This document shows, piece after piece, positions 29,714-64,000 of a stretch of 64,000 nt of DNA. Every line of letters begins with the position of its first letter. The first letter of the stretch is position 1. Under the pieces are notes generated by a model. That model did not search any database and was not told the origin of the DNA. It was given only the letters and a program-made list of their open reading frames with translations. A program made the translations under genes and the position numbers. Source of the DNA: Janthinobacterium psychrotolerans (GTDB taxonomy: Bacteria > Pseudomonadota > Gammaproteobacteria > Burkholderiales > Burkholderiaceae_D); NCBI RefSeq assembly GCF_001677885.1, contig NZ_LOCQ01000042.1, forward strand, positions 1-64,000, written 5' to 3'.

Positions 29714-30754
29714 CTAGCGCATGCCCAGCAGCGCCACCACGCGTTCGCGGCTGATGCCGACCAGGGCCGAACTGATGGCCAGCAGCGATTCATAGCCGGG
29801 CTTGCTGGCCTTGTCCGTGAAGCTTTGCGCCACCGTTTCCATGCCGGCCTCGACCGGCTTGGCCTGGGCACTCTCGACCCTGGCGGTGGCCTGTGCCAGC
29901 GCCAGGCTGACCGACGCGCGCGACTGCTGAATATGCGCCAGCGCCTGCACCACTTCGTGCAAGGTGGCGCGCAGCGCTTCGGTGTCGCCGGTATCCCATT
30001 GTTCCGGAACGATGGCGGCCGGTTCAGGATCGGTCTTGACGCGGTTCATCTGGCCGGTGGGGAAGCGGATGCCGCTGCCACGTACCGCCAGGCTGTCGCG
30101 CACATTGGCCCATGATGACTCGGGCGTGCTGAACACGAGCTGGCCTTGCTCGCCCTGGCGCACGCGGATATTCGACGGCATCAGGGCGCGGTCGAAGCGG
30201 GCAATGATTTCTTCGTCGGACAGGCCCGGTTCGATATTCACGGAACGCAAGGTCTGGTTCGCGCCGCTCACGGAAAACGACAGCACCTCCTGCGAACCTT
30301 CCTGCAGGCTGGCCATGGTCAGGCCGCGGATGGTGAAGCTTTGCTGTGCCGACTGCGGGCTGCTGTAGCCGAGCTGGGCGTCGAGCGAACCGCCCGAGGC
30401 GCTGGTGCGGTCGCGCCAGGTGCCGCTGAACTGGCGCACCCGTGCTTCGACCTGGCCATCGCGGCCGGCGCGCGCGGCCAGCTTGGCGGCCAGCTCGCTT
30501 TTCAGCGCCTGCAGCTGGCTGCTGCTGCGTTCCAGATAATCGAGGGTTTGCTGGGCGTTCGAGATCTCGCCCTGCAAATGGTGATCCCAGTTGCTCAGTC
30601 CGCGCTGCAGCGGCGCCGCCGAGCCTCTCGGCGAAGCGCCGTCGGCGCGCGCGCTGGCGCCGTCAACGCTGCCCGAGGCGCCATCGACGCCGCGCGCCGT
30701 GCCGCTGCCTTTGCCGGAGACACCGGAAGAATTGGGGAGCTGGGCGATTTGCAT
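29714..30754 (-). CDS. LafW-like hook-associated candidate protein downstream of flgL
   Basis: A 346-residue protein four bases after flgL. The N-terminal 50 residues are low-complexity with three DGAS repeats. A helical stretch (about 55-115, AQQTLDYLERSSSQLQALKS) is followed by a beta-rich region (about 145-240) with SVNIEPGLSDEEIIARFDRA and GEQGQLVFSTPE, resembling the Flagellin_IN-type insertions of filament-associated proteins. A second helical part (about 260-346) ends SRERVVALLGMR. This helix-beta-helix plan is that of axial flagellar proteins. In Flag-2/lateral clusters the gene after lfgL is lafW, called a hook-associated protein, which matches the position. Homology itself is not proven. 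Confidence 0.6.
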   Translation of the reverse strand: MQIAQLPNSSGVSGKGSGTARGVDGASGSVDGASARADGASPRGSAAPLQRGLSNWDHHLQGEISNAQQTLDYLERSSSQLQALKSELAAKLAARAGRDGQVEARVRQFSGTWRDRTSASGGSLDAQLGYSSPQSAQQSFTIRGLTMASLQEGSQEVLSFSVSGANQTLRSVNIEPGLSDEEIIARFDRALMPSNIRVRQGEQGQLVFSTPESSWANVRDSLAVRGSGIRFPTGQMNRVKTDPEPAAIVPEQWDTGDTEALRATLHEVVQALAHIQQSRASVSLALAQATARVESAQAKPVEAGMETVAQSFTDKASKPGYESLLAISSALVGISRERVVALLGMR

Positions 30755-30758
30755 GGGA

Positions 30759-31670
30759 TCAGAGGATGTCGAACAGGGAGAGCGCGCCCACTTTGCCGTA
30801 GGCCTTGTAGGTCGCTTCGAGTGCGGTCTGGTAGCCGGTCAGGTCGATGGCCGCCGCGCCGATGTCGGCCTTTTTCAATTCCAGCAGGGCATTATTGTTC
30901 GACAGCGACACATTATCCAGGTTGTTGTTCAGGGTCGACAGGATATTCTGCGCACCACCAAAGATGGCAATTTTACCAGACAATAACTCCATGCCCTCGT
31001 CGGTGCCGTCGAGCGCGTTCGTGACCGACGCGCGTACCGCCGGGTCGGCCGGATTGAGGCCGGGGGCGCTCAGGGTCTCGATGGTCTGGTCGATCTTGTT
31101 GAGCCAGTTTTCCAGGTTCTTCACGTCGACGTTTGCCGCCTGCGTGATGCCATTGCCCACCACCACCGTCTGCGTTTCGGTATTGCCCGCATAGCTGTAG
31201 CGTGAACCGACCGCCGCGCTGGCGTCGTAGGCGATCGCCGGCTTGTCGGTGGCGGTACCGGAAAACATGTAGCGGCCTTCCTGGTCCTTCAGGTTGGAGG
31301 TGTACAACACGCTGTCGCGCATGGCGCGCAGCGATTCGGTCATCGCCTTCAGGTCCGACGGCGCATTGCTGCCATCGGCGGCCCACACCAGCAGATCGCG
31401 CGCCTGGCCGATGTCGGAGACCATGCTGGACAGGTAATTTTCATTTTTCAGCAAGCGCGTCTGCACTGCGGAAATATTATCCTTGTACTGCGTCACCATC
31501 GCCTGTTCGCGCGTCAGGCGCGAGATGCGTACATTGCCGATCGGATCGTCCGATGGCAACTGGATGCGCAAGCCCGACGACATCTGCTGCGTCAGGTAAT
31601 TGATGCGTTCCTGGTTTTGCTGGATCGATACATTGATCAGCGACTGATACTGGTTGCTCGCTACACGCAT
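30759..31670 (-). CDS. flgL: Flagellar hook-filament junction protein FlgL (HAP3)
   Basis: A 303-residue axial protein. The N-terminal helix region (MRVASNQYQSLINVSIQQNQ, then YLTQQMSSGLRIQLPSDDP) and the C-terminal helix (LLELKKADIGAAAIDLTGYQ to ALSLFDIL) are the flagellin-like D0/D1 segments. FlgL links FlgK to the filament outside the cell. It follows flgK with nine bases between. The middle contains KDQEGRYMFSGTATDKPAI, the usual FlgL insert. It is a late part of the flg operon. Confidence 0.94.
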   Translation of the reverse strand: MRVASNQYQSLINVSIQQNQERINYLTQQMSSGLRIQLPSDDPIGNVRISRLTREQAMVTQYKDNISAVQTRLLKNENYLSSMVSDIGQARDLLVWAADGSNAPSDLKAMTESLRAMRDSVLYTSNLKDQEGRYMFSGTATDKPAIAYDASAAVGSRYSYAGNTETQTVVVGNGITQAANVDVKNLENWLNKIDQTIETLSAPGLNPADPAVRASVTNALDGTDEGMELLSGKIAIFGGAQNILSTLNNNLDNVSLSNNNALLELKKADIGAAAIDLTGYQTALEATYKAYGKVGALSLFDIL

Positions 31671-31679
31671 GACTGCTCC

Positions 31680-33097: not shown

Positions 33098-33490
33098 TCA
33101 GGCAGGCTTATTAAGTCCGCCCGCAACTTTGTCCGATTTGACATCGATTTTCGCGGCAGGGGACGCGGCGGAAGGCAGTAACTGGCGCAAGATCGCGTCG
33201 GCGATGCCGAACGCGCGCTGGCCGGCCATCTTGTCGGCCACCAGGTTGTCGGCCAGTTCCAGCATATCGCTGTTGACCGTATCCTTGTAGACGCTGTCTT
33301 CGCCGGCCATCTCGCGCGTGCCCGCACGCATCTGGCGCAGCATGTGCGAGATGAAAAAGGCTTCGAACTTGACGGCCGCCTCGGTGGCCTTGGCCGCATA
33401 GCGCGGATCGGCCGGCGCCACGGCGCCAGGCGACTTGTCGTCCAGCGCCGAGGGCAGGGCGCCATTGCTGTTGTCGATAGAAAAGCTCAT
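33098..33490 (-). CDS. flgJ: FlgJ rod-cap domain only (no muramidase)
   Basis: A 130-residue protein equal to the N-terminal half of FlgJ. AAVKFEAFFISHMLRQMRAG and YKDTVNSDMLELADNLVADKMAG with GIADAILRQLL are the rod-binding motifs. There is no C-terminal glucosaminidase domain; that function is encoded separately at 40542-41303. FlgJ of this short type caps the growing rod. The start ATGAGCTTTTCTATC overlaps the flgI stop in ATGA. The longer frame to 33625 lies in flgI and is a shadow. Confidence 0.93.
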   Translation of the reverse strand: MSFSIDNSNGALPSALDDKSPGAVAPADPRYAAKATEAAVKFEAFFISHMLRQMRAGTREMAGEDSVYKDTVNSDMLELADNLVADKMAGQRAFGIADAILRQLLPSAASPAAKIDVKSDKVAGGLNKPA

Positions 33491-34599
33491 CAGATCACCA
33501 CCAGTTCGCCTTCGATGGCGCCGGCCTGGTCGAGCGCCTGCAGGATCGCCATGATGTCGTCGGGCGACGCGCCCAGGCTGTTGACGACGTCGATGATGGC
33601 CTGCAGCTTGGCGCCGGCAGGCCACTGGAACATATTGCCATTGCCCTGGTCGACCGTCACTTTGGACTGCGGCGTGACGGTGGTCTGGCCGCGGCCGAAC
33701 GGCGCCGGCTGGCTGACGGCGGAGCTTTCCGAGATCACCACTTTCAGCGCGCCATGGGTGACGGCGGCGGCCTTGACGCGCAAGCCTTCGGCGATCACCA
33801 CCGTGCCGGTGCGTGAATTGAAGACCACCTTCGGCGTGTCGACGCCGACGTCGACGCTGAGCGCTTCGAGCTTGGCCATGAAGGCCACGCGCTGGGTCGG
33901 GTTTTCGGGGGCGATCACTTCCACGCTGGTGGCGTCGCTGGTGGTGGCGACGGCGCCGAAGCGGCGGTTGACGGCTTCGACGATATTGATCGCCGTTTCA
34001 AAATGGGGGCGGCGCAAGTTGAGCGTGACGGTCGGGCGGGTGGAAAAGTCGCTGATGATTTCGCGCTCGATATTGGCGCCGTTGGGAATGCGGCCCGAGG
34101 TCGGTGTATTGACGGTAACGGACGAGCCGCTTTTTCCTGACGCGCTCAGGCCGCCAACCACCACGTTGCCTTGCGCCAGCGCATAGGTTTCATTGTCGGC
34201 CGCGCGCAGCTGCGTCAGCAGCAAGGTGCCGCCGCGCAGGCTTTTCGCGTCGCCCAGCGACGACACCGTGACGTCGATCGCCTGGCCGCGGCGGTAGCCG
34301 GGAGGAAATACGGCGCTGACCATCACGGTGGCGACGTTCTTGCTTTTCGATTCGGCGCCGTCGGGCAGCTTGACGCCGAACTGCTTGAGCATGTTGACCA
34401 CCGACTGGCTGGAAAACTTCACCTGGGTGGTGTCGCCACTGCCGTTCAGGCCGACCACCAGGCCGTAGCCGACCAGCGGATTGTCACGCACGCCTTCGAT
34501 GCTGACCAGGTTGCGCAGCACTTGCGCCGCCGTGGCGGGCAGCGACATGCCGCAGAAGACAGCCAGCACGGCGGCGGGCAGGACGGAACGCAATTTCAT
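33490..34599 (-). CDS. flgI: Flagellar P-ring protein FlgI
   Basis: A 369-residue periplasmic protein that builds the ring around the rod in the peptidoglycan layer. The signal peptide is [19 protein letters not shown], ending at PATA. The family start [20 protein letters not shown] and [17 protein letters not shown] follows, and [19 protein letters not shown] closes the protein. Length is standard. It follows flgH by nine bases and overlaps flgJ by one base in ATGA. Confidence 0.97.
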
Positions 34600-38186: not shown

Positions 38187-38840
38187 TCAGGAGGTCTTGC
38201 CGTTGAAACCAGTAATCGCGCCCGGGCTGACTTCACCGAGGTTGGCGACATTGAGGATCATGCTGCCAGTGGCCGACAGCCGAACACTGCTCAGTTTTCC
38301 GGCGATATCGACCGACGGCTTCTCGCCGCTGCTGGTGGTCACCGCCATGGTGTAGGTGCCGGCAGGCATGCCCAGTTTTTGCGGGTCGATGGTGAAGGTG
38401 GCGTTGCCGGCCGCCTTGGCGCCCAGTTCGAGCTTGTATTCCTTGTCGAACTCGTCTTTCAGGGTCAGCGTCGTCTTGCTGCTGTTCGACGACAGGGCGA
38501 TGCTGCCGCTGACCTTGCCGCTATCGAGCTGCACCGTGCTGGTGTTGACCATCACTTCCGAGCCTACCTGCGCGCCGAGCGCCAGTACCTGCATGCTTTG
38601 CAGCACGCTGGCGTTGGCGCTGGTCAAGGTCGACAGGTTCTGCATCGCTTCGGTCTGCGCCTGCTGCGTCAGCTGGTTGACGAACTGGCTGGGGTCGGTA
38701 GGCGCCAGCGGGTCCTGGTTGCGGATCTGCGCCACCAGCAGTTTGGTGAACATGTCTTGCGTGGCATTGTTTTGCGACGCGACAGCCTTGCCGGTGTTGT
38801 TGGCGCTACCGGTGCCGCCAGTAAAAAGGGATGTTTCCAT
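38187..38840 (-). CDS. flgD: Hook-capping protein FlgD
   Basis: A 217-residue scaffold needed for hook assembly. The conserved N-terminal part is DMFTKLLVAQIRNQDPLAPT and FVNQLTQQAQTEAMQNL. The C-terminal half contains the FlgD Ig-like and Tudor-like region, with LPAGTYTMAVTTSSGEK-like strands. It should be secreted and lost when the hook is complete. It lies three bases after flgC. Confidence 0.94.
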   Translation of the reverse strand: METSLFTGGTGSANNTGKAVASQNNATQDMFTKLLVAQIRNQDPLAPTDPSQFVNQLTQQAQTEAMQNLSTLTSANASVLQSMQVLALGAQVGSEVMVNTSTVQLDSGKVSGSIALSSNSSKTTLTLKDEFDKEYKLELGAKAAGNATFTIDPQKLGMPAGTYTMAVTTSSGEKPSVDIAGKLSSVRLSATGSMILNVANLGEVSPGAITGFNGKTS

Positions 38841-38843: not shown

Positions 38844-39260
38844 TTACATTTCGCCTAATTTGAGGAGCGACTGCTGCATCGACTTGATACGGCCCAGAAC
38901 TTCCACATTGGTTTCAAAAGCGCGCGACGCCGACATCATGTCGGTCATCTCGGCCACCTGGTTGACGTTGGGATAAAACACCATGCCATCGGCATCGGCC
39001 ATCGGGTGGCCGGGTTCGTACACTTTGCGCAGCGGCTCGTCGCTCTGCACCACGTCGAGTACCTGCACCCGTCCGCCAGCATCCGAGGCACCGTTGCCGT
39101 CCATTACGGCCGCGAACACGGGCTTGCGGGCGCGGTAGGTCTCGGCTTCGGAACCGGCCACCGATTCGGCATTGGCCAGGTTGCTGGCGATGGTATTGAG
39201 GCGCACGGTCTGCGCCGCCATCGCCGAGCCGGCGATCTTGGAAATATCCTGGAAGCTCAT
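38844..39260 (-). CDS. flgC: Proximal rod protein FlgC
   Basis: A 138-residue rod protein. SKIAGSAMAAQTVRLNTIAS and NLANAESVAGSEAETYRARK match the family start, and NQVAEMTDMMSASRAFETNV the end. It is read five bases after flgB and is part of the proximal rod above FliE. Confidence 0.95.
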   Translation of the reverse strand: MSFQDISKIAGSAMAAQTVRLNTIASNLANAESVAGSEAETYRARKPVFAAVMDGNGASDAGGRVQVLDVVQSDEPLRKVYEPGHPMADADGMVFYPNVNQVAEMTDMMSASRAFETNVEVLGRIKSMQQSLLKLGEM

Positions 39261-39631: not shown

Positions 39632-39780
39632 GGTCATCCTTTGTGTTGAATTCGGTCATACTGGTGGCGTGCGGGCTGGCGTGTGGATACAGGAGTAAAA
39701 TGCCTGCCTGGTCTTGTTGACGCATGGTAAGGTCATGCTGTTTCAATGTTTTTGATCAGGATTCGTCAATAAGGTTAGCA

Positions 39781-40530
39781 ATGATTGATTTCACCGGTTA
39801 TGCCGCTGCATCCATCCAGGCAGGTGCCCGTCGCACGCTGTTTCCCGGCCTGTTTTTACTGACCAGCCTCTATAGTAGTGCAGGATGCGCTGAATTGCCA
39901 GCCGACAATATATTTTCCAGGGTCGAACAACTTGCCCGCGAGCAGCTGGCACAGCAGGCTGCCTCTGCGGGACTGCTGGAACCGCTGTTCGAGGTCGCTG
40001 TTGTAAAAACCACACGTGTCATCCCCGCTTGCCCGGTTCGGGTGATGATCGAGGCGCAGGACAGCCGCTCGCCGCAGCGCATGCGCTTTGTCGCCGCCTG
40101 TCCCGGCGCCGGCGGCTGGCGCCAGGAAATGCTGGTGCGCGCCAGTATCACGGCCAAGGTCGCTGTCACCAGAGGAACGGTGACGGCCAATACCCCGCTT
40201 GAACCGAGTGACGTGGAACTGGCGCGGCGCGACGTCACGATGGTGGCCGACAGCATCGCCACGCTCGATGCGGTGGCGGGCCTGTCGAGCCGGCGCAGCC
40301 TGCGCGCCGGCGAAGTGTTGCGACAAGGGCAACTGGCGTCGCCGATGCTGGTCAGGCGCGGCGCGCCCGTCAATATTGTGGCGCGCAAGGAACAGGTCAG
40401 CGTCAGCATGGATGGCGTGGCGATGGATCCTGGCGCGCAAGGCGAGGTGATCCGCGTGCGCAATGCCTCCAGCGGCACGGTGATCCGTGCGCGCGTGGTC
40501 GAGGCAGGGGTGGTCGAGCCTGCCAACTGA
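39781..40530 (+). CDS. flgA: P-ring assembly chaperone FlgA
   Basis: A 249-residue periplasmic protein. An N-terminal hydrophobic stretch (LFPGLFLLTSLYSSAGC) serves as signal. The SAF domain (VTRGTVTANTPLEPSDVELA, RRSLRAGEVL) and the C-terminal FlgA fold (VSMDGVAMDPGAQGEVIRVR) are clear. FlgA assists FlgI in forming the P-ring. ATG 39781 follows AAGG; the frame is open to 39724, with less signal-like sequence. It is the only plus-strand gene between the flg block and the motor block and is convergent with the muramidase gene 11 bases away. Confidence 0.92.
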   Translation: MIDFTGYAAASIQAGARRTLFPGLFLLTSLYSSAGCAELPADNIFSRVEQLAREQLAQQAASAGLLEPLFEVAVVKTTRVIPACPVRVMIEAQDSRSPQRMRFVAACPGAGGWRQEMLVRASITAKVAVTRGTVTANTPLEPSDVELARRDVTMVADSIATLDAVAGLSSRRSLRAGEVLRQGQLASPMLVRRGAPVNIVARKEQVSVSMDGVAMDPGAQGEVIRVRNASSGTVIRARVVEAGVVEPAN

Positions 40531-49344: not shown

Positions 49345-49395
49345 GTCAGACTCCTAAAATTAGCATGCAGGATATACACAATGACAAGGCGACCA

Positions 49396-49430: not shown

Positions 49431-49871
49431 TCATTTTACCTGTCCACGGAACCAGAATTGCGTTGCCAGTTCATCCTGTCGCTTGGCATCCATTCGCTGT
49501 TGTTCAGTTGCAACGATGCGCTGCTTCTGGGTCAGTACCTGGTCCAGCACTTCTCGCTTGGCCCAGGCCGTGTTCAGGGCGCGCTGCGATACCGCCATAT
49601 TGGCTTCGTGCAGATGCAGGTCGGTGCGATGCTGCTGCGCCAGTTCCATCACGGATTGCTTGAAATTGCCGCAATTGACCGACAGCGCCAGGTGCAGCGC
49701 GCCGCTGGGACCGCTGTCGGTATACAGGCTGGTCAGGCGTTCCAGGTTCTTCTGATAGCGGTCGCGCACGGCCGTCTGCGCCGCCATTTCGGTTTGCAGG
49801 CGCTCCACTTCGGTGCTGCGCAGGCCGACCAGGGTGGTCAGGTTGCGGATGGTATGCGAGTTGCTCATCAA
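49431..49871 (-). CDS. fliJ: Flagellar export protein FliJ
   Basis: A 146-residue coiled-coil protein: RNLTTLVGLRSTEVERLQTE, RYQKNLERLTSLY and EVLDQVLTQKQRIVATEQQR. FliJ forms the stalk of the FliHIJ ATPase and helps recycle chaperones. It lies five bases after fliI and ends the fliE block. Conservation is low, and the call rests on coiled coil, length and position. Confidence 0.85.
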   Translation of the reverse strand: MMSNSHTIRNLTTLVGLRSTEVERLQTEMAAQTAVRDRYQKNLERLTSLYTDSGPSGALHLALSVNCGNFKQSVMELAQQHRTDLHLHEANMAVSQRALNTAWAKREVLDQVLTQKQRIVATEQQRMDAKRQDELATQFWFRGQVK

Positions 49872-54681: not shown

Positions 54682-55020
54682 TTACAGTGGCAGCTTGATC
54701 AGTTCATCGACGGCACCCATGACCTTGTTGCGCACCTGCATCAACATGGAAAAGGACAAGCTCGCTTCCTGGCTGGCCAGCATGGCACCGACCAGGTCGT
54801 CGCTCTTGCCGCTGTCGACGTCGCTCATTTTCTGCGCGGCGGCGCGGTCATCGGTGTTGATCTTGCTGAAGGCATCCTGCATGCTTTGTGCAAAGGAAAA
54901 GCCTGATGGTTGCTGCGCGCCAAAACTGGCCGCCGGTGCGATGCTGGCACCGAGTGCGCGTGCGTCGTTGTTTAATGCTGCCAGGTCGGCCCTGATCAGA
55001 CTTGCGAGTTCATTGCTCAT
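54682..55020 (-). CDS. fliE: Flagellar hook-basal body protein FliE
   Basis: A 112-residue protein linking the MS ring to the rod. FSFAQSMQDAFSKINTDDRA and AMLASQEASLSFSMLMQVRN then GAVDELIKLPL are the family signature. It is the first gene of the fliEFGHIJ operon. The start MSNELASLIR follows GAGGGCACG; a longer frame to 55056 has a weak start. Confidence 0.93.
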   Translation of the reverse strand: MSNELASLIRADLAALNNDARALGASIAPAASFGAQQPSGFSFAQSMQDAFSKINTDDRAAAQKMSDVDSGKSDDLVGAMLASQEASLSFSMLMQVRNKVMGAVDELIKLPL

Positions 55021-55214
55021 CGTGCCCTCTGTTGTCAAAATGCGGTGCGGTATCAATCAGAATTACTGGTGTTGCCATGTCGCCCGGTCCGATGTCAAGG
55101 GACCCATCAGTTATATCAGTTGCCACGCCACGCAAAATGCGAGAACGATTTTCAAGCAAACCCACACTGTCGTATGCAATATGTCTGCATGGCCAAGGCA
55201 ATAATATTCAAGTG

Positions 55215-55364: not shown

Positions 55365-55601
55365 AATATTGACCAATGGCAATATCCGACAATTTCCTGT
55401 ATTCTCCAGCACCGGGGATAATCAGGATTATATGAGTGGCGCAATGGTTTGCCGGTGCGCTGTGTTCTGCGATTGCCAGCCATGGCTTTTCTGTTTTGAT
55501 TGCGCCGCTGACGGCAAAATGAAACGGTCCATCCGCGGTATATCGGCTGTATGCAAGTGCGGCTGATCCCGTATAATTTGTTCTGCCACCGCAATACCGA
55601 C

Positions 55602-56483
55602 ATGACCCACATGATAACTACCAAGACAGATCAAACTTTGCGCCATCAAGTCCTCGATTCCTGTCTGCTTGGGCGTCCTGTCCACTTGTTGCACGTCTTT
55701 GGCGCCCAGCTGCGCGAAGACCTGGCAAGCGGCTTGCGCCTGCCCATGAGCCGCCGCTACTGGGGCAATTTCCAGATCGACGACGTCAGCCTGTCGCGCG
55801 TGGACAACGAAGACCACAGCAACCGCTGGCTCGCGTTTGCGTCGCCGGCCAGCCAGGCCGGCTTTTCGCTGGACCGCCAGATCCTGCTGCACGTACTGAA
55901 CTACCGTTATGGCAGCGCCGGCGCTAAGAGCGTGGCGGCCGATCCGGCGCTGGTGCGCGTGACGGCCACCGAAGAGCGCCTCGCTGTGGTGCTGGGACAA
56001 CAATTGATCGCCACCCTGTTTGCCCGCATCCACAACAACCTGCAGGCGGTCGGCAAGGCGAGCAGCATCGATCCGGCAGCGGTACTGGCGGCACAGTCCG
56101 GCGTGCGTCCTGCGCGCGGCAGCTGGATCGTCACCGTGTCGCTCAGCGATGTCGAAGCGGGACTGTCCGGGCAGATCTGGTTTTCGCTCGACAAGGCCTT
56201 GATGGCCGATGTGCTGCGTGGCCTGCTGCCGGAACGGGCGCAGGCGAAAAAGGCGCTGCGCAGCGTGCGGCCACTCGCTTCGCGTTTGCAAGTGACCCTC
56301 GAGGGACGCCTGGTCAGCAAGCAGATGCAGTTGGGGGCCTTGTTCGACCTGCGGGTGGGCGATGTGATCCCGGTCAGTCTCAGCCGCACCGATGTGATGC
56401 TCGACGACTCGCGCCTGTTTACCGCTGCCGTTTCCGAGCACAAGGGCAAGCTCTGTTTAACCTCATTTGAAGATGTTGAATAA
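55602..56483 (+). CDS. fliM: Flagellar motor switch protein FliM, divergent
   Basis: A 293-residue C-ring protein. The last 75 residues form the SpoA-type domain (LQVTLEGRLVSKQMQLGALF, then LRVGDVIPVSLSRTDVML). The middle (60-200) has the FliM pattern weakly, with LRLPMSRRYWGNFQIDDVSL and AQLREDLASGL. The N-terminus has no LSQxEIDALL motif, where CheY-P binds in known FliM proteins. The start is uncertain: ATG 55602 or 55611 fit, neither with a good ribosome site, and the frame reaches back to 55551. Assignment is by the SpoA domain and by position before fliN, as in Flag-2. Confidence 0.82.
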   Translation: MTHMITTKTDQTLRHQVLDSCLLGRPVHLLHVFGAQLREDLASGLRLPMSRRYWGNFQIDDVSLSRVDNEDHSNRWLAFASPASQAGFSLDRQILLHVLNYRYGSAGAKSVAADPALVRVTATEERLAVVLGQQLIATLFARIHNNLQAVGKASSIDPAAVLAAQSGVRPARGSWIVTVSLSDVEAGLSGQIWFSLDKALMADVLRGLLPERAQAKKALRSVRPLASRLQVTLEGRLVSKQMQLGALFDLRVGDVIPVSLSRTDVMLDDSRLFTAAVSEHKGKLCLTSFEDVE

Positions 56484-56484
56484 T

Positions 56485-56859
56485 ATGAATATGACCGATA
56501 CCAACCAGAGCGAAACCTTGCTGGAAGACCTGGGCGATGACATGATCATCGACCAGCACGATGTGAACGAAGTGAGCGACGTGAGCAGCACCCGTACGCG
56601 GCGCGACATCCCGCAAATGATGCGCAAGATTCCCGTCACCCTGACCCTGGAAGTGGGCTCGGCCCGCATCTCGCTCGAAGAGCTGATGGCCATCGGCCCG
56701 GACAGCGTGCTCGAACTCGACATGCTGGCCGGCGAGCCGCTGGTGATCAAGGTTAATGGCACGCCGATCGGCCGCGCCGAAGTGGTGGTGGCCGGCGAGA
56801 ACTACGGCCTGAAGGTAATCGATCTCGATGGCCTCAATCTCGACCTGATGACGGCATGA
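56485..56859 (+). CDS. fliN: Flagellar motor switch protein FliN
   Basis: A 124-residue protein with an acidic N-terminal part and a C-terminal SpoA domain: KIPVTLTLEVGSARISLEEL, SVLELDMLAGEPLVIKVNGT and GRAEVVVAGENYGLKVID. It completes the C-ring and docks FliH. Nearby ATG codons at 56473 and 56491 are possible starts. It overlaps fliP by four bases, so no fliO gene stands between them. Confidence 0.93.
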   Translation: MNMTDTNQSETLLEDLGDDMIIDQHDVNEVSDVSSTRTRRDIPQMMRKIPVTLTLEVGSARISLEELMAIGPDSVLELDMLAGEPLVIKVNGTPIGRAEVVVAGENYGLKVIDLDGLNLDLMTA

Positions 56860-57626
56860 AGCTGGTGGTAAGCGGCTGGCGCCGCCAGCGCGGCGCACTG
56901 GCCGCGGCCGCCGCCGTGCCCCTGCTGCTGATGGCATGCTCGAGCGCCGGCGCGCAGGACCTGCTGGCCGGCGTGGTGCCGGGCGCGAAGACCGACCTGT
57001 CGGTCAAGATGCAGATTTTGGTCATCATGACCTTGCTCGGGCTGTTGCCCGTGATGGTCATGATGATGACCAGCTTTACCCGTTTCGTGATCGTGCTGTC
57101 CCTGCTGCGCCAGGCCCTGGGCCTGCAGCAGGGCTTGCCCAACCGCATCGTTACCGGCATCGCGCTGATTTTGACCCTGCTGGTGATGCGTCCGATCGGC
57201 GAGCAGGTATGGAAGGAAGCGTTCGTGCCCTACGACCGCGACCAGATCGGCCTGCAGCAGGCCCTGAAGACGGCCGAAGTGCCGATCACCCGCTTCATGC
57301 TGGCGCAGACCAGCAAATCGGCGCTGGCGCAGATCGCGCACCTGGCGGGCGAGCCGTCCACCATGCGCCCGCAGGACCACAGCTTTACCGTCAAGCTGGC
57401 CGCCTTCGTGCTGTCCGAACTGAAGACGGCCTTCCAGATCGGCTGCATGCTGTTCATCCCCTTCCTCATCATCGACCTGGTGGTGGCGTCGGTGCTGATG
57501 GCGATGGGCATGATGATGCTCTCGCCGCTGGTCATCTCGCTGCCGTTCAAACTGCTGCTGTTCGTGCTGGTCGACGGCTGGACCCTGACCGTCAACACGC
57601 TGGTGACCAGCATACAGGCCTATTAA
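56856..57626 (+). CDS. fliP: Export gate protein FliP
   Basis: A 256-residue inner-membrane protein. A cleavable leader (ALAAAAAVPLLLMACSSAGA) precedes the helices. Signatures are MMMTSFTRFVIVLSLLRQAL and LFIPFLIIDLVVASVLMAMG. FliP forms the core channel with FliQ and FliR. In most primary flagella FliO stabilises FliP; it is absent here. The stop is immediately followed by the fliQ start. Confidence 0.96.
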   Translation: MKLVVSGWRRQRGALAAAAAVPLLLMACSSAGAQDLLAGVVPGAKTDLSVKMQILVIMTLLGLLPVMVMMMTSFTRFVIVLSLLRQALGLQQGLPNRIVTGIALILTLLVMRPIGEQVWKEAFVPYDRDQIGLQQALKTAEVPITRFMLAQTSKSALAQIAHLAGEPSTMRPQDHSFTVKLAAFVLSELKTAFQIGCMLFIPFLIIDLVVASVLMAMGMMMLSPLVISLPFKLLLFVLVDGWTLTVNTLVTSIQAY

Positions 57627-57899
57627 ATGCTGACGCCTGAAGTTGCCGTCGACCTCATCATCGAAGCGCTGCACATCGTCATGGTGCTGGTGGTGGTGCT
57701 GGTCGTGCCCGGTTTGCTGATGGGCCTGGTGGTGGCGCTGGTGCAGGCCGCCACGCAGATCAACGAGCAGACCCTGAGCTTTTTGCCCAGGCTGCTGGTC
57801 ACCCTGCTGGCGCTGATACTGGCCGGGCGCTGGATGTCGGGTTACCTGATGGATTATTGCGTGTCGATTTTTCAGCGCGCCGCCACCCTCGTCGGCTAG
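57627..57899 (+). CDS. fliQ: Export gate protein FliQ
   Basis: A 90-residue membrane protein of two helices: VDLIIEALHIVMVLVVVLVV and VTLLALILAGRWMSGYLMDY with VQAATQINEQTLSFLPRLL between. The length and the ATQINEQTLSF loop are standard for FliQ. It starts directly after the fliP stop and lies 11 bases before fliR. Confidence 0.96.
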   Translation: MLTPEVAVDLIIEALHIVMVLVVVLVVPGLLMGLVVALVQAATQINEQTLSFLPRLLVTLLALILAGRWMSGYLMDYCVSIFQRAATLVG

Positions 57900-57910
57900 C
57901 GGGCGCGTCC

Positions 57911-58711
57911 ATGAACGAGATTTTCAACCAGATGCTGCCGTTCATGCTGGCCGTATGGTGGCCTTTCTGCCGCATCCTGGCCATGCTCAGCGCCTCGCCG
58001 GTGATCGGCGACGTCACGGTGCCGGTCACGGTGCGCATCCTGCTGGCGCTGATCCTGGCGATATTGATGCTGCCGGTGATGCAGGCCTCGGGCGCCTCGC
58101 GCGAACTGCTGTCGATCGATCCGCTGTCGCTGCACGCGATCGTCGCCACGCTCGAGCAGGCCATCATCGGATTTGTGCTGGGACTGGCGTTTCACTTTGC
58201 CATGTCGGTCATGTCGGTACTCGGTTTCCTGGTGTCGAGCCAGGTGGGCTTTTCGATGGCGGTGATGAACGATCCGCTCAACGGCACCTCGTCGGACGTG
58301 ATTTCGGGCCTGCTCACCATCTTGTGCATGATCGTGTTTTTTACCGTCGACGGCCACCTGGTGCTGACCGGCGTGATCGGCGCCAGTTTCAAGGCCTGGC
58401 CCGTCGGGCAGGGCTACGGGCCGCTGCTGTTGCAGACGGTGGCCTATAACGTGGCGTGGATTTTCGCCGCCGCCATGCTGCTGGCGCTGCCGATCGTGTT
58501 TTCCACCATGGTGGTGCAGATGGGCTTTGGATTTTTGAACCGCGTGGCGCCGTCGCTGAACCTGTTTTCGCTGGGATTTTCGATGATCACCGTGTTCGGC
58601 CTGCTGATGCTGGTGCAGATCGTCAAGTTCATTCCCGAGCACTATATCGCCATGACCAACCGGGTGCTCGACATGATTGCAGAACAGATGCGGGTGGCCC
58701 ATGGCGGATAG
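57911..58711 (+). CDS. fliR: Export gate protein FliR
   Basis: A 266-residue membrane protein. MNEIFNQMLPFMLAVWWPFC begins it; LGLAFHFAMSVMSVLGFLVS and QVGFSMAVMNDPLNGTSSDV are the conserved centre. The end RVAPSLNLFSLGFSMITVFG is typical. It joins FliP5Q4 in the gate. It overlaps flhB by 11 bases. The frame is open upstream to 57857, within fliQ. Confidence 0.95.
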   Translation: MNEIFNQMLPFMLAVWWPFCRILAMLSASPVIGDVTVPVTVRILLALILAILMLPVMQASGASRELLSIDPLSLHAIVATLEQAIIGFVLGLAFHFAMSVMSVLGFLVSSQVGFSMAVMNDPLNGTSSDVISGLLTILCMIVFFTVDGHLVLTGVIGASFKAWPVGQGYGPLLLQTVAYNVAWIFAAAMLLALPIVFSTMVVQMGFGFLNRVAPSLNLFSLGFSMITVFGLLMLVQIVKFIPEHYIAMTNRVLDMIAEQMRVAHGG

Positions 58712-59840
58712 CAGCACCGGCGACAAAACCGAAAAGGCGTCACAGCAAAAGCTGAAAAAGTCGCGCCAGGAAGGGCAGGTGGTGCGCTCGCGCGACCTGT
58801 CGACCGCGCTCGGCATCCTGATCAGCATGAAACTGTTCGTGTTCCTGGTGCCGGACTACCTGGAAACGTTTCGCCAGCTATTCGCCATGTCCTTCATGCC
58901 GCTCGACAGCACGGGCGCGCTCGACAACGCCATGTCGATGGCGTTTACCACCTCGGTGGGCCTGTTGATCAAGATGATCCTGCCGCTGTTCTGTGTGCCG
59001 TTTTTTGTGGTGCTGGGCTCGTTGATACCCGGCGGCTGGGTGATCAGCACCAAGAACTGGGCGCCGAAGATGGAACGCCTGAGTCCCGCCAAGAACCTGG
59101 GCCGGCTGGTGAGCCCGAAGCATGGTTTCGAATTCGGCATCTCGATCGCCAAGGCGGTGGTGCTGGGCATGGTGCTGGTGCATGTCAGCCGCGCCAGCCT
59201 GGCGCAGTACGTCGATTTGCAGCACCGGCCCCTGCAGCAGGCCATGCTGGACGGCTCGGCGCTGATGCTCGACGGCCTGATGGCGCTCATTTCCGTCTTC
59301 ATCCTGTTCGCCATCATCGATGTGCCGGCGCAGGCCTTCTTCTTTGCCAAAAATCAGCGCATGAGCAAGCAGGATGTGAAGGAAGAACACAAGAGCAGCG
59401 AAGGGCGGCCCGAAGTGCGCCAGCGCATCCGCCAGCTGCAGCAGCAGCTGGGCCGGCGCAGCGTGCGCAAGACCGTGCCCGACGCCGACGTGGTGATCGT
59501 CAACCCCGAGCACTACGCCGTCGCCCTCAAGTACGACCAGGACCGCGCCGAGGCGCCGTTCGTGGTGGCCAAGGGCGTCGATGAAATGGCGCTGTATATC
59601 CGCCAGGTGGCGCGCGAGCACAATATCGAGACGCTCGAATTGCCGCCGCTGGCGCGCGCCATCTATAACACCAGCCAGGTGCAGCAGCAGATTCCGGTGC
59701 AGCTGTACCAGGCCGTGTCGCAGGTGCTGAACTACATCCTGCAACTGAAAGCATTCCGGTCCGGGCAGCGTGCTGCCCAGCCCGTATTACCCACCGAGAT
59801 GGCCGTGCCATCTCATCTGAGCGAGGTCGTACCGCCATGA
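58701..59840 (+). CDS. flhB: Export switch protein FlhB
   Basis: A 379-residue protein. The N-terminal part (DKTEKASQQKLKKSRQEGQV) and four helices (about 35-205) precede the cytoplasmic autocleavage domain. The cleavage site reads NPEH at residues 268-271 (VVIVNPEHYAVALKYDQ), in place of the usual NPTH; Asn, Pro and His are kept. FlhB cleavage changes export from hook to filament substrates. The start MADSSTGDKTEKAS overlaps fliR. Confidence 0.95.
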   Translation: MADSSTGDKTEKASQQKLKKSRQEGQVVRSRDLSTALGILISMKLFVFLVPDYLETFRQLFAMSFMPLDSTGALDNAMSMAFTTSVGLLIKMILPLFCVPFFVVLGSLIPGGWVISTKNWAPKMERLSPAKNLGRLVSPKHGFEFGISIAKAVVLGMVLVHVSRASLAQYVDLQHRPLQQAMLDGSALMLDGLMALISVFILFAIIDVPAQAFFFAKNQRMSKQDVKEEHKSSEGRPEVRQRIRQLQQQLGRRSVRKTVPDADVVIVNPEHYAVALKYDQDRAEAPFVVAKGVDEMALYIRQVAREHNIETLELPPLARAIYNTSQVQQQIPVQLYQAVSQVLNYILQLKAFRSGQRAAQPVLPTEMAVPSHLSEVVPP

Positions 59841-61927
59841 ACTTCCTGAACCGACTGGTTGCCGAGATGCGCCGCCACAAGTTCGCCACGCCAATGTTCC
59901 TGTTGGTGATCCTGGCCATGATCATCCTGCCGCTGCCGCCGGTGCTGCTCGATATCCTGTTCACCTTCAATATCGTGCTGGCCCTGATCGTTATCCTGGT
60001 CAGCGTCTCGGCCAAGCGGCCGCTCGATTTCTCGGTCTTTCCGACCGTGATTCTGGCCACCACCATGCTGCGGCTGACCCTGAACGTGGCGTCGACGCGG
60101 GTGGTGCTGCTGCACGGCCATACGGGCGCCGATGCGGCCGGTAAAGTGATTGAAGCGTTCGGTAACGTGGTTATCGGCGGCAACTTCGTGGTCGGTATCG
60201 TGGTCTTCGTGATTTTGATGATCATTAACTTCGCGGTGGTGACCAAGGGTGCGGAACGGATCTCGGAGGTGTCGGCGCGCTTCACCCTGGACGCCTTGCC
60301 GGGCAAGCAGATGGCGATCGACGCCGACCTGAACGCCGGCCTGATCAACCAGGAAAAAGCCCAGCTGCGCCGCAAGGACGTGGCCGCCGAAGCGGACTTT
60401 TATGGCGCCATGGACGGCGCCTCGAAGTTCGTGCGCGGCGATGCGGTCGCCAGTATCCTGATTTTGATCATCAACATGGTCGGTGGCGTGGCCATCGGCT
60501 CGCTGATGCACGACCTGTCGTTCGGCGACGCCTTCCGCCAGTACGCCTTGCTGACCATCGGCGACGGCCTGGTGGCGCAGATCCCGGCGCTGCTGCTGTC
60601 GGCCGCGGCCGCCATTCTGGTGACCCGCATCAGCGACTCGGGCGACTTCGAGCAGCAGGTGGCGGGCCAGGTGCTGACCTCGCCAACGGTGCTGTTCAGC
60701 GCCTCGGGCATGATGGTGGCGCTGGCGCTGATCCCGGGCATGCCGTGGTTCATGTTCATGACGTTCGCGGCGGTGCTGGCCTTTGTTGCCTGGCGCCTGA
60801 CGCAGCAGAAGGTCAAGGCGCCCGATACCTCGGGCATGGCCGCCATCGAAGCGGCCTTGCTGGGCGACAAGCCGGCCGAACTGGAGTGGCAGCAATTGCC
60901 GGCCGTGCAGCCGCTGATGGTCATGCTCGGCTATAAACTGGTGGGCATGGTCGACAAGACCCAGGGCGAACCGCTGAACAAGCGCGTCAAGGGCGTGCGC
61001 CAGAGCCTGTCCGAGGCGATGGGATTGCTGCTGCCGCCGATCGGCGTGCGCGACGACCTGGCGCTGAAACCGTCGCAGTACACCATCATGCTGTCGGGCA
61101 CGGTGGTGGCCCAGGCCGAAGTGCAGGCCGACCGCTTGATGGCGATTCCCTCGCCGAATGTGTATGGCCAACTCGATGGCATTCCCGGCATCGAACCGGC
61201 CTACGGCATGCCGGTGACCTGGATCGAACCTGCCGAGAAGGCCCATGCGCTCGGCATGGGCTACCAGGTGATCGAGGCGCCCAGCGTGATCGCCACCCAT
61301 TTGTCGAAGATGATCCGTGAATACCTGCCGGAACTGTTCCGCCATGAAGACGTGTCGCACATGATGGAACGGTTGACGGCGCTGTCGCCGAAACTGGCCG
61401 CTGCGCTCGACAAGGCGCTCACGCATACGCAGCTGCTGCGCGTGTTTCGCGTGCTGCTGGCCGAGAACGTGTCGCTGAAAGACCTGGTGCCGATCGCCAC
61501 CACCTTGCTCGACAGCTCGGAAACGACCAAGGACCCGATCCTGCTGGCGGCCGAAGTGCGCTGTGCGCTGCGGCGCCAGATCGTCAGCGGCCTGTTTGGC
61601 CAAAAGCTGGAAATGCAGGCATTTAACCTGGGCGGCGAGCTGGAAAACATGCTGCTGGGATCATTGAACCAGGCGCGCCAGGCCGGCAAGGTAACGCTGG
61701 ACAATTATCCGATCGACCCGCACCTGCTGTCGCAGCTGCAGGTCAATATGCCGGTCGCGCGCGAACAGATGAAGCAGCAGGCCACGCCGCCGCTGCTGCT
61801 GGTGTTGCCGCAGATCCGTCCGCTGCTGGCGCGCTATGCGCGCCTGTTCGCGCCGGGCCTGCACGTGCTGTCGTATAACGAGATTCCCGAAAACCGCGAA
61901 GTGAGCATCATCGGCACGGTCGGCTGA
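59837..61927 (+). CDS. flhA: Export gate protein FlhA
   Basis: A 696-residue membrane protein, the largest gate component. The helical N-terminal half (1-330) includes LDFSVFPTVILATTMLRLTL, and LNVASTRVVLLHGHTGADAA leads to the FHIPEP region with DALPGKQMAIDADLNAGLIN. The cytoplasmic ring domain (350-690) has VIATHLSKMIREYLPELFRH and the terminal EIPENREVSIIGTV. It overlaps flhB by four bases and ends the fliM-flhA operon. The next gene is convergent six bases away. Confidence 0.97.
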   Translation: MNFLNRLVAEMRRHKFATPMFLLVILAMIILPLPPVLLDILFTFNIVLALIVILVSVSAKRPLDFSVFPTVILATTMLRLTLNVASTRVVLLHGHTGADAAGKVIEAFGNVVIGGNFVVGIVVFVILMIINFAVVTKGAERISEVSARFTLDALPGKQMAIDADLNAGLINQEKAQLRRKDVAAEADFYGAMDGASKFVRGDAVASILILIINMVGGVAIGSLMHDLSFGDAFRQYALLTIGDGLVAQIPALLLSAAAAILVTRISDSGDFEQQVAGQVLTSPTVLFSASGMMVALALIPGMPWFMFMTFAAVLAFVAWRLTQQKVKAPDTSGMAAIEAALLGDKPAELEWQQLPAVQPLMVMLGYKLVGMVDKTQGEPLNKRVKGVRQSLSEAMGLLLPPIGVRDDLALKPSQYTIMLSGTVVAQAEVQADRLMAIPSPNVYGQLDGIPGIEPAYGMPVTWIEPAEKAHALGMGYQVIEAPSVIATHLSKMIREYLPELFRHEDVSHMMERLTALSPKLAAALDKALTHTQLLRVFRVLLAENVSLKDLVPIATTLLDSSETTKDPILLAAEVRCALRRQIVSGLFGQKLEMQAFNLGGELENMLLGSLNQARQAGKVTLDNYPIDPHLLSQLQVNMPVAREQMKQQATPPLLLVLPQIRPLLARYARLFAPGLHVLSYNEIPENREVSIIGTVG

Positions 61928-61933
61928 TTCGAC

Positions 61934-63004
61934 TCAATCCTGTTCCTCGATGGGCATCAGCAATTCATGGCCGGGCTCATCGGCAGGCAGCACGATCTCT
62001 TCGGCCGTGGCGTCGCCCCAGTAGTCTTTTGGCGCCGCCACTTCCTTCGACACGATCACCGGCTCTTCCTGCGCCGGCGCCGGCGGCGCCTCGTGCACGG
62101 CCGGATCCTGCGCCACTTCCGCCGGCGGACGCGTCAGCAGCAGCGCCACCTCGGCCATCGCTTGGAACAGCGGCAGCGACAAGGCGGCGGCCGCCGCCTG
62201 CATCGGATAGCCGGCATGCGCCGGTTGCGCATGCAGCACGCGGTTCAAACGGCAGCGCAGCAGCCGCAGGCCTGCCTGGCGCACGCAATCGGCAATCGCG
62301 GGCAGCATGCGGCGCAGGTGCGCCAGCGCTTCGTCTTGCTGGGCGGCCAGTTCCAGCAGCACGCCGTCATTGGCCGGTTCCATCTGGATCACCACCCGGC
62401 CAACATCGTCGATCAGCAGTTCGACCCGCAGCGCCACCTTGCCCTGGCGCTTGCGGGGGGCGGTGGCTTCTTCGCCGCCCGGCAGCACGCGCAGCAGCAG
62501 GCGCTGGCCGGCCCAGCCGTAGACGGCAAAGCGCCAGGCCTCGGTGTCGAGCGGCAGCGAGGAACGGGCCACTGGCTGCTGTTCCGCCATCAGCAGCGTG
62601 CCGGGCAGGTGCTGGCCGCGCGCGTGCTCCTGCAGCGCCGCATATTGTTCGCCATAGGTTTTCACCATCACGCGCCATGAGGCGGCCAGCTGCGCCGCAT
62701 CGGGCGGCTGCCACACCAGCTGGCGCGTAAAGAATAATTGATTGACCTGCATCGCGCTGCTGTCGCGCGCGGTGGCGCCCAGGCCCGGGTCGCCCGCGTT
62801 CGGCTTGACCAGCGCCGCCAGCGCGTCTTGCGCCTGGCCCAGCTGCGCCGGCAGGGTACCGGCGTCGGGCGCCGGCGCCATGAACGGGCCGACAGGCACC
62901 AGCGGCATCACCACGCCAGGCGTCAGCGGCGTGGCCGGGCTGACGTCGAGGCGCTGCGTGATCAGGGGCAGGGCGTTGCCTGCGGAGATGCGGTCTATGG
63001 CCAT
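61934..63004 (-). CDS. FliK C-terminal domain-like protein downstream of flagellin
   Basis: A 356-residue protein of uncertain role. After a Pro/Ala-rich N-terminal part (1-90), a central region (QPPDAAQLAASWRVMVKTYG) and a domain at about 195-275 follow. That domain has the FliK_C pattern: LRVELLIDDVGRVVIQMEPA, then LELAAQQDEALAHLRRMLPA and VRQAGLRLLRCRLNRVL. The tail is acidic. The start ATG 63004 follows GGGAAGAG; the frame is open to 63040, inside the flagellin terminator. It is probably a second ruler-like or export-related protein. I cannot name it, and fliK itself is present elsewhere in the locus. Confidence 0.6.
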   Translation of the reverse strand: MAIDRISAGNALPLITQRLDVSPATPLTPGVVMPLVPVGPFMAPAPDAGTLPAQLGQAQDALAALVKPNAGDPGLGATARDSSAMQVNQLFFTRQLVWQPPDAAQLAASWRVMVKTYGEQYAALQEHARGQHLPGTLLMAEQQPVARSSLPLDTEAWRFAVYGWAGQRLLLRVLPGGEEATAPRKRQGKVALRVELLIDDVGRVVIQMEPANDGVLLELAAQQDEALAHLRRMLPAIADCVRQAGLRLLRCRLNRVLHAQPAHAGYPMQAAAAALSLPLFQAMAEVALLLTRPPAEVAQDPAVHEAPPAPAQEEPVIVSKEVAAPKDYWGDATAEEIVLPADEPGHELLMPIEEQD

Positions 63005-63027
63005 TGCTGCTCTTCCCACCTGGGATG

Positions 63028-63058
63028 AAAAAAAAGCCAACTGCTTGCGCAGTTGGCT
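63028..63058 (-). terminator. Flagellin intrinsic terminator
   Basis: AGCCAACTGC (63035-63044) and GCAGTTGGCT (63049-63058) form a perfect ten-base stem with a four-base loop. An A-run at 63028-63035 becomes the U-tract on the minus strand. It stands 41 bases beyond the flagellin stop codon and just before the FliK-like gene, so the strong flagellin transcript should end here. Confidence 0.85.
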
Positions 63059-63066
63059 CCGGTGCG

Positions 63067-63087
63067 CCTGACCTGAGCCAGGTCAGG
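63067..63087 (-). other. Second hairpin in the flagellin 3' untranslated region
   Basis: CCTGACCTG (63067-63075) and CAGGTCAGG (63079-63087) form a perfect nine-base stem with a three-base loop, between the flagellin stop and the terminator. It has no U-tract of its own. Such stems protect abundant mRNAs from 3' exonucleases. Confidence 0.5.
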
Positions 63088-63099
63088 GCAATTTTACTA

Positions 63100-64000
63100 T
63101 TATTGCAGCAGGGACATGACCATCGAGGACATGCTGTTGCTTTGTTTCAGCATCGCGGTACCAGCTTGCAGCAGCATTTGCGAAGCGGTCATGTTCGAGC
63201 TTTCGGTCGCGAAGTCGGTATCCATGATGCGGCCCGAAGCGCCCTGGGTGTTGGTGCTGACGTTCGACAGGTTGCTGTAGACTTTGTCCAGGCGGTTGGC
63301 GGCGGCGCCCAGTGCCGAACGCGAGGTGCCCACGGAATCGATCGCTGCCTGCAGCTTGTCGATGGCGGCCGACGCGTTTGCCGGCGTGGTCAGTTCGGTG
63401 CCCGGGGTGCCCGCTGCCGCGCCGAAGGTGTTGAAATTGGCGGTGGCGTTTTTCAGCGCGCTCTGCATGGTGCCCAGCTGCGCCGACAGGTCGAAGCTCA
63501 TCGTTTCCTTGGTCGATGCGCCGATCTGGAATTGCAGGTTGGCCGAGAATTTGCCGTCATTGGCGGCGTCGCTGGCATTGGCGGCGGTGCTGTATGCTGC
63601 GGAAGCGGCGGCGGTGGCTTTGGCCACCTGGTCGGCTTTGTCGGCGTTCAGTTTGTTGGTCGTTGCGGTGACCACGGCGGCAGCGGTGGTGGCGTTGGCG
63701 CCGCCGGTGCCGTTGGCGGTCACTGCAGCGGCCAGCTGGGTGCCGGCCGTGGCGGCCAGATCGGCAGTACCTGTGGTGGTGGCTGTGACGACCAGGCCAT
63801 CAGCGGTAGCTTTGCTCAGCGCTGCGGTTTTTTCGGTAGCCGTTGCTGCTTTGGACATCAGTTTGGCGCCAGCGAACGAGGTGTTGCCCAGAACGTTGCT
63901 CAGTTCGTTGGTCAGCGTGTCGAATTCAGCTTGCATGGCTTTTTGATCGTCAACGGTCGACGAACCATCGGCTGCTTGCGTGGCCAGGTCTTTCATGCGG
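63100..64000 (-). CDS. Flagellin, 5' partial
   Basis: The C-terminal 300 residues of a flagellin; the gene continues beyond the right edge, and the first visible Met is internal. The C-terminal helix region is clear: LGAAANRLDKVYSNLSNVST, then MDTDFATESSNMTASQMLLQ and KQSNSMSSMVMSLLQ. The conserved D1 part QAADGSSTVDDQKAMQAEFD is also visible. The centre (about residues 60-150 of the visible part) is a low-complexity Ala/Thr-rich stretch. In position it corresponds to lafA of lateral clusters. It is followed by a strong terminator. Confidence 0.93.
   Translation of the reverse strand, partial: RMKDLATQAADGSSTVDDQKAMQAEFDTLTNELSNVLGNTSFAGAKLMSKAATATEKTAALSKATADGLVVTATTTGTADLAATAGTQLAAAVTANGTGGANATTAAAVVTATTNKLNADKADQVAKATAAASAAYSTAANASDAANDGKFSANLQFQIGASTKETMSFDLSAQLGTMQSALKNATANFNTFGAAAGTPGTELTTPANASAAIDKLQAAIDSVGTSRSALGAAANRLDKVYSNLSNVSTNTQGASGRIMDTDFATESSNMTASQMLLQAGTAMLKQSNSMSSMVMSLLQ

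Follow-up and report, generated by a model that had tools for sequence, protein, structure and literature searches.

The window analysed here comprises positions 1 to 64,000 (64,000 nt, forward strand) of contig NZ_LOCQ01000042.1 of Janthinobacterium psychrotolerans (RefSeq assembly GCF_001677885.1). Its segment 29714-64000 is, judged by gene content, a complete lateral (Flag-2/Laf-type) flagellar locus with genes for export gate, rod, hook, filament, cap, MotAB-type stators, sigma-28 factor and anti-sigma factor. On the minus strand the genes lie in three blocks, i.e. fliE-F-G-H-I-J (54682-55056 down to 49431), fliD-S-T-K-L-A-motA-motB-flgM-flgN-muramidase (49344 down to 40542), and flgB-C-D-E-F-G-H-I-J-K-L with a LafW-like gene (39637 down to 29714), and the plus strand holds flgA (39724-40530) and fliM-N-P-Q-R-flhB-flhA (55551-61927). 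Gene names were derived from NCBIfam and Pfam family models, several scores being below the curated cut-off of the model, as indicated for each feature below. Loci, genomes and contigs used in the comparisons are designated by L, G and C numbers.

29714-30754, minus: LafW-like hook-associated protein (346 amino acids), adjoining flgL; no Pfam or NCBIfam match
30759-31670, minus: flgL; TIGR02550, 195.8 bits
31680-33044, minus: flgK; TIGR02492, 283.4 bits
33098-33493, minus: flgJ, rod-binding part only, overlapping the flgI start; weak FlgJ and Rod-binding matches, start read from the same-genus locus comparison
33490-34599, minus: flgI; PRK05303, 428.9 bits
34609-35280, minus: flgH; PRK00249, 267.2 bits
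35280-36068, minus: flgG; TIGR02488, 347.1 bits
36099-36827, minus: flgF; PRK12640, 280.1 bits
36854-38131, minus: flgE; PRK06803, 392.8 bits (below cut-off 467), match starting at residue 41 of a longer open reading frame (ORF)
38187-38840, minus: flgD; PRK09619, 175.3 bits (below cut-off 267)
38844-39260, minus: flgC; TIGR01395, 146.4 bits
39266-39637, minus: flgB; PRK12685, 149.8 bits, and TIGR01396, 90.6 bits
39724-40530, plus: flgA; TIGR03170, 112.3 bits
40542-41321, minus: separate FlgJ-type muramidase; C-terminal half of FlgJ model TIGR02541
41290-41730, minus: flgN; PF05130, 47.1 bits
41727-42017, minus: flgM, one of two in the genome; PF04316
42034-43050, minus: motB/lafU stator; best NCBIfam model PRK06778 (LafU), 197.6 bits (below cut-off 383)
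43037-43951, minus: motA/lafT stator; TIGR03818, 352.4 bits
44003-44767, minus: fliA/lafS sigma-28; PRK12427, 277.5 bits (below cut-off 339), and TIGR02479, 224.9 bits (above cut-off)
44786-45262, minus: fliL; PRK07021, 39.8 bits (below cut-off 131)
45262-47190, minus: fliK; PF02120, 53.1 bits, at the C-terminus
47187-47504, minus: fliT-like chaperone, by position and length only; no family match
47497-47886, minus: fliS; TIGR00208, 72.6 bits
47932-49344, minus: fliD; PRK08032, 120 bits (below cut-off 387)
49384-49414, minus: promoter-like element TTTMA-N16-GTCGYCTTGT before fliD; twin before lafA at C21:64326-64356, beyond the window
49431-49871, minus: fliJ; TIGR02473, 41.8 bits (below cut-off 50.45)
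49877-51187, minus: fliI, lateral clade; PRK07196, 741.4 bits (cut-off 715)
51184-51900, minus: fliH, lateral clade; PRK13386, 234.1 bits (cut-off 192)
51870-52946, minus: fliG; TIGR00207, 194.8 bits (below cut-off 226.7), with FliG_N, FliG_M and FliG_C
52888-54636, minus: fliF; TIGR00206, 205.2 bits
54682-55056, minus: fliE; TIGR00205, 66.6 bits
55057-55550, no strand: divergent control region of about 0.5 kb, the lafK slot of gammaproteobacterial lateral loci, with no such gene
55551-56483, plus: fliM, divergent, without the CheY-binding N-terminal motif; FliMN_C only, 28.9 bits
56467-56859, plus: fliN; TIGR02480, 81.9 bits (just below cut-off 84.05)
56856-57626, plus: fliP; TIGR01103, 233.2 bits
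57627-57899, plus: fliQ; TIGR01402, 88.1 bits (just below cut-off 88.9)
57857-58711, plus: fliR; TIGR01400, 156.4 bits (below cut-off 168.6)
58677-59840, plus: flhB; TIGR00328, 330.2 bits (below cut-off 349.25)
59837-61927, plus: flhA, lateral clade; TIGR01398, 765 bits (just below cut-off 772.1)
61934-63040, minus: second FliK-type protein, kept beside lateral flhA; weak Flg_hook match
63100-64000, minus: lateral flagellin lafA, truncated at the window edge (full gene C21:63100-64266, 388 amino acids); PF00669, 133.3 bits, and PF00700, 75.9 bits

The reading frames of the locus were intact as read here, and its G+C content showed no gross difference from the flank. The gene order was the same in all six same-genus loci compared (in one, G027, the LafW-like gene was cut by the stretch end, and fliK was unlisted with its C-terminus readable at the right place), and the arrangement is therefore not due to chance. 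The initial annotation of the window had described fliMNPQR-flhBA as facing fliEFGHIJ; both blocks are present, but they are transcribed apart from the common region of about 0.5 kb. Its consecutive order fliD-fliS-fliT-fliK-fliL-fliA-motA-motB was recovered on the minus strand, with fliT placed by position and length only, and the sigma-28, FlgM, stators and flagellin that it assigned to the locus were each identified by family models. Its statement that the window lacks chemotaxis genes holds within the scan, which covered the flagellar half of the window and, from 1-29754, 13 proteins. The best E. coli Flag-2 match of the LafW-like protein was LafW (24.8%, E-value 7.6e-5, a weak match), no match was obtained on contig C17 of the same genome, and relatives adjoin flgL in L019 and L024.

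Lateral-type descent was apparent in the rooted FlhA tree (42 rows), in which 20 lateral proteins split from the 22 others at 100/100. The window FlhA branched with lateral FlhA of gammaproteobacteria (100/100), and the 15 beta-type laterals, one of which (G593) is from outside the order, formed a single clade (100/100) among five gammaproteobacterial laterals. A five-protein tree of 33 rows agreed with this; E. coli LfhA, to which the window FlhA is 60% identical, was in neither tree. The FliI protein passed model PRK07196 (741.4 bits, cut-off 715), which its counterpart in the primary flagellar set of the genome failed (546.8 bits), whereas on TIGR03496 (cut-off 619.1) the order was reversed (lateral 601.8, primary 665). 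We read PRK07196 as a probable marker of a lateral FliI clade on the grounds of this score contrast and of the identity of the lateral FliI to E. coli Flag-2 FliI (66%) versus its own primary FliI (53%), so that FliI was placed in the lateral clade by family models. Similarly, FliH scored 234.1 bits on PRK13386 versus 71.6 for primary FliH. When the window proteins were compared with the E. coli Flag-2 locus of strain ET350 and with primary contig C17 (contig C22 being left out), 30 of the 31 with counterparts in both scored higher against Flag-2, some of the C17 matches being non-significant (FliL, FliJ, FliM); the sole exception was FlgJ, and the LafW-like protein, FlgN, MotB and FliK matched Flag-2 only. 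An Endozoicomonas locus (L028) combined a lateral-like fliE-fliF/fliN layout with an FlhA branching at the base of the primaries, and its label as primary is uncertain.

The genome (5.84 Mb, 62 contigs, 100% complete) contains two FlhA matches, two FlgM, and five Flagellin_N matches, which by position are three flagellins and two flgL. The primary set was located on C17 at approximately 46 to 93 kb, with FlhF, FliO, MotD, a normal FliM and two flagellins, and with an FlhG called by position, whose sole match was a weak MinD model. Over four long stretches, the DNA of this contig was 84-87% identical to that of the Janthinobacterium sp. SUN073 primary cluster. On C22, Pfam domains delineated flhD-flhC-motA-motB-cheY-cheA-cheW, a methyl-accepting chemotaxis protein gene and cheR, with two unscanned ORFs between. 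The search for a second cluster thereby located the predicted primary system elsewhere in the genome, complete with fliO, flhF and che genes. Since another flagellar cluster is present and the window FlhA does not group with the primary proteins, the lateral reading is supported. The primary flagellum appears to be chemotactic and is probably polar, the latter being suggested by flhF. At least three MotB-type stator genes occur in the genome, i.e. MotD-like (C17:53275-54171), MotB (L096:11973-12914) and LafU-like (window 42034-43050).

The lateral FliM scored 21.6 bits on TIGR01397 versus 348.4 for primary FliM. The N-terminal motif L[ST]QxE[ILV]DxL, the docking site of phosphorylated CheY (CheY-P), is present in primary FliM and absent from all 15 lateral FliM proteins, E. 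coli Flag-2 included (that of L022 shows a GGxG match, inside an over-extended N-terminus). The lateral motor should therefore not switch with chemotaxis, and is presumably non-chemotactic. Lateral motors are characterised as non-chemotactic, with long-branched FliG and FliM, in the available part of one source (PMC8042155). FlgJ is split into the rod-binding part and a separate muramidase, which is 51% identical to the C-terminus of the primary FlgJ and has no counterpart in E. coli Flag-2. The protein adjoining flhA (61934-63040) was present in 26 of the 27 related loci searched, and 18 of 25 aligned members matched Flg_hook at E ≤0.1 (best 2.2e-8); the alignment comprised the 26 matched loci minus L022 (run-on ORF) and L016 (of length and scores as L192), plus the window's own protein.

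The initial annotation called the locus complete, which stands in so far as a full second flagellum is encoded; completeness as a Flag-2 gene set is not supported, LafK being missing from its slot and none of the window proteins compared having E. coli LafZ as best match. The gap between fliE and fliM is too short for LafK, both in the window (494 bp) and in all 19 family loci compared (185-630 bp). In lateral loci of gammaproteobacteria (L023-L027) this slot contains LafK-like genes, alike mutually and to the E. coli slot gene. No LafK-like gene was seen there in the betaproteobacterial loci L016, L018, L020, L021 and L022 (by eye) and L017 (by gap length), and the L015 stretch ends before the slot; by eye and with no family scan, the slot ORFs resembled a kinase and a regulator in L029, and a flagellin and a response regulator in L019. 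Elsewhere in the genome, the 12 NtrC-type matches (191-251 bits, best 250.7) were rejected as LafK candidates in view of the 322-383 bits among gammaproteobacterial LafK proteins. LafK is called a distinguishing gene of Flag-2 in the accessible text of PMC6993521. However, its absence is no bar to lateral type, because the working lateral cluster of the gammaproteobacterium Plesiomonas shigelloides, according to the part of PMC4481668 at hand, is likewise without lafK. No sigma-54 site was seen by eye in the fliE/fliM region. An FlhDC box common to primary and lateral early promoters was rejected as too weak, only the seven bases GGCAATA being shared.

Lateral flagellin and fliD are preceded by a promoter-like element. 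In an alignment of seven loci, GTCGTCTTGTAC was kept before lafA and GGTCGCCTT before fliD. The pattern TTTMA-N16-GTCGYCTTGT, itself drawn from the genus of the window, had two exact matches in the genome, before the lateral flagellin and fliD. In the genus set of 40 genomes, to which the present one belongs, 65 exact sites were found in 36 genomes, versus none for the reversed control, with one to three sites in most genomes and nearly all of them at the lateral locus. By hand count, 61 of the 65 shared a contig with lateral flhA and were no more than about 13 kb away from it, and three others were on different contigs of broken assemblies (two in G028, one in G035). The two genomes without lateral FlhA had no element match. 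At ≤1 mismatch the element preceded lafA in all five named betaproteobacterial loci (five genera) where lafA is visible. Of the 19 family loci, 16 contributed lateral flagellin genes (the other three stretches being without lafA), and each of these 24 genes had the element upstream at ≤1 mismatch; none of 860 letter-shuffled upstream regions contained it at ≤2 mismatches. These counts rest on the plain pattern, a weight matrix that included the betaproteobacterial sites being partly circular. A similar site, TTTAA followed one base closer by GTCGTTTTTA (by eye), stands upstream of E. coli Flag-2 lafA, and the promoter class may accordingly be old.

Primary contig C17 contained no lateral element at ≤2 mismatches. 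Primary-type sites of the form TAAA-N15-NYCG numbered seven, two upstream of each primary flagellin gene and one each upstream of primary fliD, flgM and flhDC. They end in TTTAA, TTAAT (twice), TATAG, TTAAC, ATAAG and TTAAA, with YCTTGT in none; late promoters of the primary set have final letters of WTAA type instead. The two sigma-28 factors differ in region 2.4 (DWLPRSMR versus DWRPRAVR) and region 4.2 (SRVSQLHTQ versus DARVCQLNK), and these differences are common to the lateral sigma factors aligned. We consider it an even question whether betaproteobacterial lateral flagella use a private sigma-28 promoter class, read only by lateral FliA and lacking the LafK/sigma-54 tier. Alternatively, the two sigma factors could be interchangeable and the differences between the elements due to drift rather than separate regulons. 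That both elements are spaced like sigma-28 promoters, with 15 bases separating the -35 part from the -10 part, that GTCGTT, near the lateral GTCGYC, occurs in the -10 part of two of the seven primary-type sites, and that E. coli Flag-2 lafA carries GTCGTTTTTA are in line with this alternative, but the lateral GTCGYCTTGT hardly changes from one genus to another, the spacer being freely variable, the YCTTGT ending and the lateral element are missing from the primary sites and contig, respectively, and the changes in regions 2.4 and 4.2 follow a pattern shared by lateral proteins, and we regard interchangeability as possible, though rather doubtful. No description of such a promoter class was found in the literature searched, subscription journals being mostly outside its coverage. 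If the private promoter class is real, a single cell would run two full flagellar sigma-28 circuits side by side, with little cross-talk between them.

Taken as a whole, the locus is best explained, with high probability on the basis of the sequence comparisons, as a complete second, lateral-type flagellum beside a chemotactic primary one, with what may be a late-promoter switch of its own. Early genes may start from the divergent fliE/fliM region, perhaps via the single FlhDC of the genome. Lateral FliA (LafS) would be released from its own FlgM at hook completion and would then read the element observed before fliD and the flagellin, and a separate promoter class would help to keep the two sets of filaments apart. 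A motor with a FliM that lacks the CheY-P motif would not switch with chemotaxis. To judge from the lateral family and from flhF, the second flagellum would probably serve to move the cell over surfaces or through viscous surroundings, beside the chemotactic, probably polar one.

Several observations count against this picture. FlhDC as lateral master regulator is only faintly hinted at by the single copy of FlhC in the genome. The last of the 65 exact element sites, in G033, is far from the locus, and G002 and G016 have lateral FlhA without an exact element, G002 having it at 1 and 2 mismatches. Before fliD, the element (≤2 mismatches) was found in only 8 of 19 family loci. A wider regulon was rejected, since 18 sites at ≤2 mismatches versus 39 for the reversed control represent no genome-wide enrichment. 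GTCG is also carried in the -10 part of two of the seven primary-type sites, so that primary and lateral sites are told apart by their final letters and by the -35 part. Finally, in the available portion of PMC12804093, 15 Janthinobacterium species are described with a single polar flagellum, according to which the lateral genes may not be expressed under ordinary culture conditions; these descriptions suggest conditional expression or a missed lateral set. They are also compatible with a locus that is lateral-type by descent and seldom or never used, comparable to the incomplete Flag-2 loci known from some enterobacteria; among enterobacterial strains carrying flag-2, 22.13% lack one or more of its genes, as reported in the accessible text of PMC6993521. 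A dead locus would decay, however, and the intact frames, the lateral FlhA in 38 of 40 genomes, the conserved synteny (6/6) and the retained promoter-like elements make such silence improbable.

The distribution favours long retention of the second flagellum. Lateral FlhA was present in 38 of the 40 genus genomes, counting the present one, and in 165 of 183 genomes of four genera, of which this genus is one. Among the 371 family genomes of ≥90% completeness it was found in 36/37 of the own genus, in 68/72, 51/59 and 10/15 of three other genera, and in 2/188 elsewhere, by a hand count from the table in which rows with an E-value of 0 were taken as lateral and, among the matches listed, identity went down to 79%. 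The class sample contained one other lateral genome among 377, and is poor for gammaproteobacterial sampling. Recent horizontal gain is rejected by the near-universal distribution in the genus and the four genera, and the suggestion of the initial annotation that the system was acquired fails in that recent sense. A recent copy of a gammaproteobacterial lateral locus could be proposed from the nesting of beta-type laterals among gammaproteobacterial ones in the rooted FlhA tree, and from the lateral FlhA at 72% identity in G593 (L139/L197), outside the order, but it is highly improbable when the distribution follows four genera, all beta-type rows form one clade, and no gross G+C difference from the flank is seen. 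The G593 FlhA, which lies inside the beta-type clade, is likely a transfer out of betaproteobacteria. Monophyly of the gammaproteobacterial laterals was not rejected (approximately unbiased test, p 0.0718), so that an ancient transfer of the locus between gamma- and betaproteobacteria may have gone either way. Extra FlhA-like matches (29-49% identity) in G002, G014 and G018 are perhaps injectisome-type export genes.

Published work already describes lateral systems for betaproteobacteria, among them Janthinobacterium, and the promoter class is the unexpected part. The available text of PMC5773237 lists LafA homologs for J. lividum, Duganella, Chromobacterium and Roseateles, and that of PMC8929069 mentions genes for polar and lateral flagella in Janthinobacterium SLB01. 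Like the window, E. coli Flag-2 (lfh/lfi/lfg/laf) has three gene blocks, the order fliD-S-(T)-K-L-A-motA-motB, LafW beside flgL, a diverged FliM without the CheY motif, and its own sigma-28 and FlgM. In contrast to E. coli, the window has no lafK between fliE and fliM and no lafZ match, the fliD block is directly behind fliJ, and an extra muramidase and an extra FliK-type protein are present. With the lateral flagella of Vibrio parahaemolyticus and Aeromonas, for which the Vibrio loci L024 and L026 served as stand-ins, the window shares the FlhA clade, stators, sigma-28 and gene blocks, whereas these loci have a LafK-like gene in the fliE-fliM slot and, by eye, sigma-54-like sites before fliD, where the window element is of the sigma-28 kind. 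Sigma-54-like GG/GC sites were likewise seen by eye at the place of the element before lateral fliD in L025 and E. coli L199, as in L024 and L026. By description, the system resembles that of P. shigelloides, which is functional without lafK, and is set apart from Burkholderia dolosa, for which the accessible part of PMC5773237 gives no lateral fliL or fliT and lafA beside fliM, unlike the window with fliL present and lafA beyond flhA. The lateral flagellum would be a trait that nearly the whole genus has kept for long, although its species have recently been described with one polar flagellum, and two sigma-28 factors with two promoter kinds would offer a simple system for the separate control of two similar machines.

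Past the window, behind the lateral flagellin, C21:64440-69480 (L008:4440-9480) encodes three enzymes that may modify the lateral flagellin, namely a glycosyltransferase of TPR/GT41 (OGT-like) type, a methyltransferase and a fatty acid desaturase; relatives of GT41 or the methyltransferase occur near lafA in four of six same-genus loci. On the other side, the locus is adjoined by genes for a chlorhexidine-efflux (BTP) family transporter and a heptosyltransferase-like protein (27462-29754). The window also contains, at 3897-16004, a CHASE hybrid histidine kinase gene followed by RecBCD-type nuclease genes, with RecC and RecD matched and the ORF between them unscanned.

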